Below, piece by piece: positions 17,713 to 21,657 of a stretch of DNA of 64,000 bases (positions within the stretch are counted from its first letter, which is position 1; each line of letters begins with the position of its first letter). Both the position numbers and the translations under genes were made by a program. The DNA is from Variovorax sp. HW608 (GTDB lineage: Bacteria; Pseudomonadota; Gammaproteobacteria; Burkholderiales; Burkholderiaceae_C). The stretch is from positions 7,094,229 through 7,158,228 of the forward strand of contig NZ_LT607803.1 in the NCBI RefSeq assembly GCF_900090195.1, in the 5' to 3' direction. The notes under the pieces are model-generated. The model saw nothing but the letters and a program-made list of their open reading frames with translations, was not told where the DNA came from and ran no database searches.

Positions 17713-18360
17713 ATGACGATGCAAACCCCTCTCCGACAGATCCCCTTGTTTCCGCTCGGCACGGTGCTGTTTCCCGGCGGCTTCCTGCCGCTGCGGATAT
17801 TCGAGGTGCGCTATCTCGACATGATCGGCAAGTGCCACAGGACCGGCGAGCCCTTCGGCGTCGTCTGCCTCACACAGGGTTCGGAGGTGCGCAAGGCGGG
17901 CGCTGACGCCGAAGCCTTCGCGACCATCGGCACGCTGGCGGTCATTCGCGAGCTCGAATCGCCCCAGGCCGGACTGATGCAGATCGAATGCACCGGCACG
18001 CAGCGCTTCCGGATTCATTCGAGCGAGTTGCAGAAGCACGGCCTGTGGACGGCCGAAGTCCAGGCCATCGCCGACGATGTGCGCCTCGAAATCCCCACGG
18101 ACTTGCGGCATGTATCCGAGGCATTGCGTCGCGTGGTCGACACGCTGGAGGAGCGTCGCCGCCAGCAGGGTACGCCGGGCCTGCGCCTGCCCATGCTCGA
18201 ACCCTATGAGTTCGAGGATTGCGGCTGGGTGGCCAACCGCTGGTGCGAACTGCTGCCGGCGCAGCCCGAACTCAAGCAGCGCCTGATGGAGCTCGACAGC
18301 CCGCTCATGCGTCTCGAGCTCGTCGGCGATCTGCTGGCGCGCACCGGGATCGCCAATTAG
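17713..18360 (+). CDS. LON substrate-binding domain protein
   Basis: A 215-residue stand-alone LON N-terminal (substrate-binding) domain protein, without the ATPase and protease parts of Lon. The signature is at the N-terminus: IPLFPLGTVLFPGGFLPLRI followed by FEVRYLDMI. The ATG at 17713 is chosen; 17689 is an alternative, and the frame is open further into the divergent yggT start. The TAG stop is at the left junction of the IS110/IS1111 element, so the insertion lies just at or after the stop and leaves the protein intact. Function is unknown. Confidence 0.88.
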   Translation: MTMQTPLRQIPLFPLGTVLFPGGFLPLRIFEVRYLDMIGKCHRTGEPFGVVCLTQGSEVRKAGADAEAFATIGTLAVIRELESPQAGLMQIECTGTQRFRIHSSELQKHGLWTAEVQAIADDVRLEIPTDLRHVSEALRRVVDTLEERRRQQGTPGLRLPMLEPYEFEDCGWVANRWCELLPAQPELKQRLMELDSPLMRLELVGDLLARTGIAN

Positions 18361-18363
18361 ATG

Positions 18364-18376
18364 CTATGAAGGGCTG
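18364..18376. repeat. Left subterminal inverted repeat of the IS110/IS1111 element
   Basis: CTATGAAGGGCTG pairs in inverted orientation with 19902-19913, allowing one gap and one mismatch. It lies directly after the TAG stop region of the LON-domain gene. Confidence 0.65.
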
Positions 18377-18440
18377 CCCCAGGCGAGTCCCATTGAGCTA
18401 GAACGGGAACTCCCAGGCAGCAAACCAAAGGAGCACGGCC

Positions 18441-19574
18441 ATGTCTGCACCCGAGACAGTCCTTCAAGGCAAGGATAGGACGAATGCGCACGATCTGTAC
18501 ATGAGTTTGGAGCTGAGTGACAAGCGTTGGAACCTGACCTTCGGCGACGGCATCCGTGGCCCCAGCCGGTGCACTGTGGCCGCTGGCGATTGCACGGCCG
18601 TGCTCGAACGTATTGGCAAGGCCCGAGTGCGCTTTGGGATACCAGCCGAGGCGGCGGTTCACGCGTGCTACGAAGCAGGTCGGGATGGCTGGTGGCTGCA
18701 CCGCTGGCTGGTCGAGCAAGGCATCCACAACATCGTGGTCGACTCGGCCAGCATCGAGGTCAACCGGCACGCCAGACGTGCCAAGACCGATCGACTCGAC
18801 GGCGACAAGCTGTTGGCGATGCTGCAGCGCTATCGCGCGGGCGAGGTGCGCGTATGGTCGGTGCTGCGCGAACCCACGCCACGGCAGGAAGACGCGCGCC
18901 GGTTGCACCGCGAGCTGCAGCGACTGTCGCACGAACACACCGCCCACACCAACCGCATCGGCTCGTTGCTGGTTTTGCACAACCTGCGAGTGCATTGCAT
19001 CGGTGGGCGAAACTGGCAGGCGTGGTGGGACAGCCACTGCGCGCAGGTACCGCCGGCGCTGCGCGGCGAGATCGAGCGCGAGTGTGTGCGGCTGATGCTG
19101 GTCAAACAGCAGATGCGCACGCTCGAGGCGACGCAGCGCAAGGAAGTGGAAGACCGCGTGCAGCCACAGGTGTCGCAACTGGCCAAGCTGCGCTCGATCG
19201 GAGTCGCTAGCGCCTGGTTGCTGGTCAAGGAGTTGTTCGGCTGGCGACGCTTTGCGAATCGGCGCGAATTGGCAGGCTGTCTGGGGCTTGCACCCACGCC
19301 CTATGCCAGCGGCAACAGCCAGATCGAGCAAGGCATCAACAAGGCCGGCAACAAACGAGCGCGCACCTTGCTGGTGGAGCTGGCGTGGAGCTGGTTGCGC
19401 TATCAGCCCGACAGTGCCTTGAGCCAGTGGTTCATGCGTCGCTTCGGTGCAGGCGCCAAGCGTATGCGACGCATCGGCATCGTGGCGCTGGCGCGCCGCC
19501 TGGCGGTAGCGTTGTGGCGCTACCTCGAGCATGGCGAGATCCCAGCGGGCGCCACGCTCAAGGGCGTCGCGTAG
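18441..19574 (+). CDS. IS110 family transposase (bridge-RNA-type recombinase)
   Basis: The 377-residue recombinase has an N-terminal RuvC-like DEDD domain and a C-terminal transposase_20 domain carrying the catalytic Ser. In the N-terminal part the first acidic motif reads MSLELSDKRW, so Glu24 occupies the position usually filled by Asp; later acidic residues are in CYEAGRDG and KTDRLDGDKL. The C-terminal domain starts around LRSIGVASAWLLVKEL and contains LAPTPYASGNSQIEQG and INKAGNKRAR, typical of the family. AAGGAG at 18429-18434 precedes the ATG. There is no frameshift, so the element may be active. Confidence 0.93.
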   Translation: MSAPETVLQGKDRTNAHDLYMSLELSDKRWNLTFGDGIRGPSRCTVAAGDCTAVLERIGKARVRFGIPAEAAVHACYEAGRDGWWLHRWLVEQGIHNIVVDSASIEVNRHARRAKTDRLDGDKLLAMLQRYRAGEVRVWSVLREPTPRQEDARRLHRELQRLSHEHTAHTNRIGSLLVLHNLRVHCIGGRNWQAWWDSHCAQVPPALRGEIERECVRLMLVKQQMRTLEATQRKEVEDRVQPQVSQLAKLRSIGVASAWLLVKELFGWRRFANRRELAGCLGLAPTPYASGNSQIEQGINKAGNKRARTLLVELAWSWLRYQPDSALSQWFMRRFGAGAKRMRRIGIVALARRLAVALWRYLEHGEIPAGATLKGVA

Positions 19575-19609
19575 AAGCCACCCTGGCCCAGACGAAGGCA
19601 TCTTCATGA

Positions 19610-19815
19610 TCACAGGTCGACGCGCCCGAAACAGGCCAGGGTCACCGCACAGGGACCGTCCTACTAGATGGGGCGCGCCGGTAACAGGGGTAAGCCCAAG
19701 CGCGATGCGTGCATGTTGCATGTGGTGCCGGATGCGCATACCCGGCACGGATAGAAGGTTGTCCGAGCCTTGGCTCGAACGCTTGTCACGCCCCAACCTC
19801 GCATCACGAGGCACT
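19610..19815 (+). ncRNA. Candidate bridge RNA of the IS110/IS1111 element
   Basis: This structured segment lies in the 3' non-coding end of the element. A 7-bp stem (19621-19627 with 19671-19677) encloses an internal loop. Its 5' side contains AACAGGCC (19630-19637), complementary to the right flank of the insertion (GGCCTGTT, 19917-19924). Its 3' side contains TAGATG (19665-19670), identical to the left flank (18358-18363). An inner stem (19641-19643 with 19654-19656, plus 19638-19640 with 19660-19662) caps the loop. Further hairpins are 19725-19731/19742-19748, 19764-19769/19772-19777 and 19797-19801/19807-19811. ATAGAAGG at 19751-19758 matches the right end of the element at 19910-19917 and could be one donor guide; the second donor guide was not found. 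The RNA ends are guesses. Confidence 0.5.
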
Positions 19816-19901
19816 CCTTCCGAACGGCCATCGCACTCTTGCCCGCACCTACCGCAATCAACGCCACTGTCGATATCTGGATGTGAAACCCCTTGACAAT
19901 T

Positions 19902-19913
19902 CAGTCCTCATAG
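19902..19913. repeat. Right subterminal inverted repeat of the IS110/IS1111 element
   Basis: CAGTCCTCATAG is the inverted partner of 18364-18376. A 3-base AAG spacer separates it from the GGCC of the flanking palindrome. Confidence 0.65.
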
Positions 19914-19914
19914 A

Positions 19915-19967
19915 AGGGCCTGTTCACGCTATTTCCGGGGATCGCGGAAATAGCGTGAACAGGCTCT
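19915..19967. repeat. Perfect 20-bp palindrome abutting the IS110/IS1111 right end
   Basis: Arm 19918-19937 and arm 19945-19964 are exact reverse complements around a 7-base loop (GGGATCG). Two further pairs and a G-T wobble extend the stem to 23. The arm begins GCCTGTTCACGC. No T-tract follows, so it is not an obvious terminator. It looks like a dispersed palindromic repeat, the kind of site IS1111-group elements often choose. No second copy is visible in this window. Confidence 0.85.
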
Positions 19968-20091
19968 AACGCGCTACGGATTCGATAGCGGCAGATCAAG
20001 CGCTGGCGGGCTGGACGGACGGGTCTCTCAAGAGGCCCGGGCGGTTAAAATGGCGGGTTGCGCTCGACACCGACAGCGCCACTACCCAGCC

Positions 20092-21653
<1,562 letters not shown>

Positions 21654-21657
<4 letters not shown>

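Follow-up and report, generated by a model that had tools for sequence, protein, structure and literature searches.

The 64,000-nucleotide stretch of Variovorax sp. HW608 DNA analysed here (the window) carries an insertion sequence of the IS1111 group (IS110 family) at 18361..19916, and the non-coding region (NCR) downstream of its transposase gene very probably encodes a bridge RNA (seekRNA) with target guides. By sequence comparison, the RNA scaffold was shown to be conserved, a 5' guide to be complementary to the right-flank half of the target, and the guides to change with the targets across relatives. Coordinates are those of the window, and all features other than the palindromic target are given on its forward strand.

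The IS1111-group element and its insertion site

The element is 1556 bp long, has the core dinucleotide AG at each junction and can equivalently be drawn at 18359-19914. The extent common to its two copies in the genome, read left to right, is TAGATG...CATAGAAGGGCC, the shared sequence being limited by TAGATG on the left and by CATAGAAGGGCCTGTTCACGCTAT on the right. It is flanked by an ORF ending at 18360 and by a second ORF (20050-21657) that, by eye, looks like a lysine-tRNA ligase. The transposase gene (18441..19574, 377 aa) leaves 80 nt of non-coding sequence upstream (18361-18440) and 342 nt downstream (19575-19916). Its product scores 170.7 bits (cut-off 140) against NF033542 ('IS110 family RNA-guided transposase') and 54.6 bits against the C-terminal domain PF02371; the DEDD (RuvC-like) N-terminal model PF01548 scored 19.8 bits, below its cut-off of 29. 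The GL-P----S(T)G motif is found in the transposase alignment as G282, L283, P285, S290 and G291. A profile from an alignment of 11 relatives (A2) matches the solved transposases of IS621 (8wt6, E 9.7e-6) and ISCro4 (9t56, E 2e-5) over the C-terminal part, and a phmmer search of the PDB with the transposase itself gave no match at 1e-3. The second genome copy (copy 2) has an identical NCR and transposase, with a 100% protein match over 377 aa. An 82-bp tandem duplication of the 3' end of the transposase gene lies just after the stop in copy 2 (L002 2704-2786).

The left end, ATGCTATGAAGG (18361..18372), contains the putative left subterminal repeat and would be the donor half for the proposed left donor guide. 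Relatives usually read ATGCTATG there, with variants in L004, L005, L039, L069, L085 and L102. The right end, TCATAGAAG (19908..19916), contains the putative right subterminal repeat and the core AG (19915-19916), and the guide-matched flank comes next; under a looser right-end pattern, the right ends of relatives read CATAGAAG, and their flank also begins directly after. Aligned by eye, the candidate subterminal inverted repeats CTATGAAGGGCTG and CTATGAGGACTG agree at 11 positions and differ by a single gap and a single mismatch, against a group criterion of 11-13 bp. The terminal extensions are 3 on the right (AAG) and 5 to the core on the left, or 6 if the target T is counted, where 7 (or 6) + 3 is usual.

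The target is a REP-like palindrome (19917..19969), of which GGCCTGTTCACGC... forms one arm. It is dispersed, with 19 arms in the genome within two mismatches of NTAGGGCCTGTTCACNCTATTT, three of them exact. TAG precedes the arm in 10/19, and the right junctions of the two element copies are two of the remaining nine. Intact palindromes with TAG directly before GGCC (TAG|GGCC) are present in the genome, and because intact REPs read TAG before the arm, we took the empty site to be TAG|GGCCTGTT and the inserted DNA to be 18361-19916, or the same interval shifted by the shared AG. Guide and right target are identical in the two copies; in copy 2 the REP arm breaks off after its first 16 bases, and no second arm was found in the 112 bases that follow.

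A sister element gave a second view of the junction. Its transposase is 67% identical, and both of its copies (L004 and L005) occupy the right end of a ~1.49-kb DDE_5 transposon, which we take to belong to the IS701 family with a YTAR duplication. CTAA stands to the left of both transposon copies and is restored on the right when the sister element is removed by eye; the sister junction is therefore TTAG|TCTTACTGTG, with AG as the shared core. In this genome the two cases of this arrangement are recorded at L150 1133-2628 and L151 1151-2646 (G000:C1, about 2524132-2525627 and 2382650-2384145). Taken together, the intact REPs and the two sister insertions at the DDE transposon end fix the core, as read from sequence, as AG. 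The left core is then at 18359..18360 (CT on the other strand), in agreement with the left ends of relatives, which by eye read AGATG or AGATA (exception, L102). The AG of the 3' guide region likewise does not vary among 30 aligned NCRs. The AG core had been offered as an alternative in the first-pass annotation and was correct.

That annotation had also proposed fixing the core from the empty site in a related strain. The orthologous locus, which gave matches in 94/101 genomes (own included), was inspected in two, G019 and G074. The stop TAG is followed there directly by CGCGCTACGG; the locus is indeed empty, and it leaves the core unfixed since the REP is absent along with the IS. Because both are missing from G019 and G074 at the place that corresponds to 18358-19969 of the window, the REP palindrome may also have arrived there by insertion and so have provided the target.

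Target guides and flanks across relatives

The 5' target guide, AACAGGCC (19630..19637), is the reverse complement of GGCCTGTT at 19917-19924. The letters and coordinates quoted when this loop was first described are correct: CGCGCCC at 19621-19627 with GGGCGCG at 19671-19677, TAGATG at 19665-19670 and 18358-18363, and ATAGAAGG at 19751-19758, equal to 19910-19917. By itself, the match in the window element is suggestive only, because the chance level is about 1%: the 8-mer turned up in 1.15% of 20,000 mononucleotide-shuffled NCRs, and among all other 8-mers of the window, 0.95% are matched by a reverse complement in the NCR.

For the comparison, 42 loci were collected by scanning named genomes with a pattern and 20 stretches came from genomes of the genus; the loci of a family search were added. 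Matches were found in 44/100 genus genomes (E <= 1e-3) and in 7/299 genomes of the family search (E <= 1e-60), own genome included in each. A strict scaffold pattern was fitted by 34 distinct NCRs, the window's among them: GCGCCC is followed by 11 variable bases and the hairpin GGGTC...GACC, then by ~9 more variable bases, the AG and a strand of GGGG. The right end was readable in 31 of these, the exceptions being L068, L073 and L093. They yielded 34 right-flank records, including both copies of the window element, both copies of the sister element, and L072 and L075, which share one NCR and have two flanks.

Guides in these 34 records (31 NCRs) paired with their own flank at 7.44/8 positions versus 3.96/8 for the flanks of other elements, the same three registers being tried in either case. 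The permutation null had a maximum of 5.03, 0/20,000 permutations reached the observed value, and the own flank was best or tied-best in 30/34 records. An earlier test on 26 records in one register agreed, with own-flank identity of 7.19 versus 3.59 for other flanks over 9 positions (p <= 5e-5). This test used a narrower right-end pattern, under which 9/35 rows lacked a right end, and L070 scored 0 and L080 3/9; the same p bound was obtained for non-redundant subsets (16 right, 19 left), related elements not being independent events. Matches per guide position (n=26) were 25, 23, 24, 22, 24, 21, 22 and 21, then 5 at the ninth. Because of this drop to 5/26, the guide length is put at 8 nt for the clade by sequence comparison. 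These results bear out the initial assignment of the bases on the 5' side of the loop as the guide for the right flank.

Listed as 33 distinct flank records at the best of three registers, taking the outer right end where two exist, 17 paired at 8/8, 12 at 7/8, three at 6/8 and one at 5/8. L066 and L082 pair at 6/8 and L099 at 5/8. The first-pass annotation had named, as evidence against itself, copies with unrelated flanks and the same loop bases; relatives with other flanks instead carry guides that match their own flank, at 5/8 or better in all 33 records. A chance 8-nt match between the 342-nt NCR and its flank, which is expected at ~1% for one element taken alone, is contradicted by these 33 records and refuted by both permutation tests, and we give it practically no weight.

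The register is off by one base in several records, one way in L070, L080, L082, L083 and L099 and the other way in L004 and L005. Among NCRs that the pattern missed, examined by eye, L064 and L098 pair 8/8, and L084, with a 12-base segment, also matches. L109 is cut short, and L039, L102 and L148 hold neither the donor motif nor the right end; these loci were outside the test. Guide position 11 is C, which pairs with the core G, in 23/34 records and a mismatched A in the window. The relative at L071, about 4101 (the same element as L111), lacks its 5' guide and one of the two closing-stem strands and keeps the remaining RNA sequence with the right end. The NCR tail of L117 (6506-7130) is tandemly duplicated and provides a second right end, where the outer flank pairs 6/8 and the inner 2/8; L117 was outside the 34-record test and its twin L092 (8/8) inside. 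The right end of L114 is likewise doubled (outer 8/8, inner 3/8).

On the left side the read-out is shorter. The 3' target guide, TACTAG (19662..19667), ends in the AG core, and among 25 records the left flank agrees with the guide in 22 at -1 (7.2 expected), in 21 at -2 (7.3) and in 13 at -3 (6.5). Farther from the core, agreement is 11 at -4 (9.1 expected), 12 at -5 (8.1) and 3 at -6 (7.1), again with n=25. From these counts, the 3' guide tracks only the two or three bases before the core. In the window copy the guide TACT-AG faces AATT-AG, and in copy 2 it faces GGCT-AG; the T beside the core thus matches in both, the -2 base only in copy 2 and the -3 base only in the window. Of TAGATG, which had been proposed as the left guide, the T (guide) and AG (core) stand. 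The six-nt guide as a whole was rejected, as ATG is the element's own left end and a common scaffold motif; AGATG occurs in 18/30 aligned NCRs and TAGATG in 5/30. The read-out is accordingly ~12-13 bp rather than the ~14 bp first suggested, the left guide giving only ~2-3 bases plus the AG core.

RNA scaffold, and proposed donor guides and mechanism

The conserved scaffold (19613..19789) was delimited as the stretch aligned among 30 NCRs (alignment A1). RNAalifold folded the 30 NCRs into a target-loop stem, an apical hairpin, further donor-domain hairpins and a 3' hairpin. The target loop is closed by 19621..19627 and its partner 19671..19677, six pairs of which are in the consensus fold, and its apical hairpin (GGTC...GACC, 19640..19657) shows compensatory changes in relatives (helices 3-4). 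Counted over the 30 NCRs, pairing is seen in 94.5% of cells (91.5 shuffled), 14 pairs changed on both sides (6.0 shuffled), and 37 cells hold such changes (11.2 shuffled). Four of five measures were reached by 0/500 shuffles, and the fifth, further pair types, by 5/500; slid versions of the consensus structure pair 24.9-56.9% of cells. The covariation check proposed earlier for the closing stem came out negative in that nearly invariant stem: 99.4% of its cells are paired, four of its six pairs never vary and two vary one-sidedly, and the covariation sits in the other hairpins. The single-sequence folding energy of the NCR is unremarkable (z = -0.69), and no Rfam family reached its gathering score in the window or in four relatives.

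The target copy in the NCR could also be a relic captured from insertion sites, with the transposase itself recognising the target. We consider this very unlikely, as the guide has a fixed place in a conserved fold, the two half-guides match opposite strands, and in the relative ISEc11 both circle formation and transposition were shown to require the NCR (Siddiquee et al, 2024; PMC11187229).

Two donor guides are proposed in the second domain. The proposed right donor guide, ATAGAAG (19751..19757), is identical to the right end (19910-19916) and invariant in the 30 A1 NCRs. The donor guide first annotated at 19751-19758 thus keeps its 7-nt match to the right end and loses its eighth base, which belongs to the flank. 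The proposed left donor guide, GCAT (19718..19721), is the reverse complement of ATGC at the left end (18361-18364). Two lineages (L004 and L069) have a guide change from C to T alongside a change from G to A in the left end: GCAT becomes GTAT in L004 and GTAA in L069, and both left ends read AGATA, not AGATG. The guide base is T in 3/30 NCRs and C in 27. The match between guide and left end in L069 breaks at the next base but one, and L076 has the guide change without a left end for comparison. The evidence that GCAT may be the second donor guide is thin.

These observations bear on the alternative that the RNA guides only to the target, the ends being recognised by the transposase through the subterminal repeats and ATAGAAG and GCAT being structural. 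The right end and ATAGAAG hardly vary, so that pairing cannot be demonstrated, and the left donor match is just 4-5 nt long and lies inside a predicted hairpin. Against this, the 7-nt identity is maintained in all 30 A1 NCRs, in two lineages a guide base and the left end have changed together, and donor pairing is predicted for IS1111 members (PMC11208160). We regard a target-only guide as rather unlikely and prefer a bridge RNA that reads both target and donor.

In the mechanism that we propose for such a bridge RNA, the RNA would be made from the NCR and bind the transposase. Its two target guides would pair with opposite strands of the intact REP, NTAG|GGCCTGTT. In this way they would position the AG core so that strands can be exchanged with the element in its circular form, and GCAT and ATAGAAG, in the second domain, would read the donor junction. 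The joined ends of the circle may also make a promoter, as has been reported for ISEc11 (PMC11187229). A candidate -35 box, TTGACA (19893..19898), lies 24 bp from the right end, and TTGAC is present at the same offset in 24/28 right ends, a count that includes L115 and L120, where it occurs twice. This box is compatible with a circle-formed promoter; no convincing -10 partner was seen by eye. Several points go against the bridge-RNA reading: the invariant closing stem, the guide mismatches at -2 and -3, the 5 + 3 extensions, the A at position 11, the location of copy 2 on a partial REP arm, and the four records at 6 or 5 of 8.

Known systems and other mobile elements as probable targets

As judged from sequence, the window element fits the arrangement published in 2024 for IS1111 seekRNA/bridge RNA and so is of a kind already known. 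With the seekRNA elements ISEc11, ISPa11, ISKpn4 and ISPst6, as described by Siddiquee et al (2024; PMC11187229), it shares a predicted RNA downstream of the transposase gene, a top-strand complement 5' of a bottom-strand match and the GL-P----SG motif, and it has candidate subterminal repeats. ISPa11 also targets a REP, of a different sequence (PMC11187229). The window element differs in that its transposase is longer (377 aa versus the 330-350 stated for IS1111 in PMC11187229), its extensions to the core are 5 + 3 bp, and its guide length was measured here over a clade. For IS1111 elements in general, a bridge RNA is predicted in 93.0%, mostly at the right end (PMC11208160).

With the IS110 bridge RNA as reported for IS621 and six diverse members (Durrant et al, 2024; PMC11208160), the common features are a target loop whose two half-guides flank a core dinucleotide (here CT, read on the opposite strand) and a second, putative donor domain, together with, for IS621, REP targeting and C-terminal homology. 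The IS621 type has its RNA at the left end, ahead of the recombinase gene; here the RNA scaffold lies in the right end, downstream, and the element was therefore not placed in the IS621-type subgroup. In addition, the order of the half-guides along the element is reversed relative to the IS110 type (PMC11208160), and the second-side guide is short here, at 2-3 nt. Of the IS621-like geometry first proposed, the two-guide target loop thus holds, and the order is the one published for IS1111.

The sister element (L004 and L005) is aimed at another mobile element. Its guide ACAGTAAGA is complementary to the right target TCTTACTGT at 9/9 positions, and the genome contains only two copies of that transposon end at <=1 mismatch. 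The transposon's right ends, TTAG|TCTTACTGTG, are both occupied, and its left ends, CTAA|TCTTACTGTG, which have no AG, are both free. IS4321/IS5075, also of the IS1111 group, reportedly target the terminal repeats of Tn21-type elements; both systems would thus be aimed at the end of another mobile element, with a different host element and target sequence. On balance, we lean towards a reading in which the sister guide reads the terminal repeat of the DDE (IS701-like) transposon together with its 4-bp target duplication, the AG core determines which of the two ends is open to insertion, and the guides of the clade swap freely within a fixed scaffold, some lineages having been re-aimed at mobile elements. 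Natural redirection between IS1111 relatives has been reported (PMC11187229).

At L067 3001-5400 (G091:C15), a sibling transposase gene is in two parts (residues to 346 and 344-375) with an IS1111 relative between them, and this insertion at conserved codons is matched 8/8 by the relative's own guide GCGATGCCCAC. In Variovorax sp. WS11 (L112 4097-7100, L114, L115 and L117), four IS1111 transposase genes are split at ~codons 344-352 by ~3-kb stretches. The stretch in L112 carries the gene for a 703-aa large serine recombinase (Resolvase, Recombinase and zinc ribbon), and its junction letters recur in L115 and L117 and were not found in L114 by script.

IS1111/IS110 recombinases are RNA-guided and programmable, and the clade gives a measured guide rule (8 nt + AG + 2-3 nt) that can be read from sequence alone. 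It also supplies natural guide-target pairs, plus what would be a concrete case of guides being swapped between repeats and other transposons. If the proposed re-aiming is true, guide swapping would let an RNA-guided element prey on other transposons.
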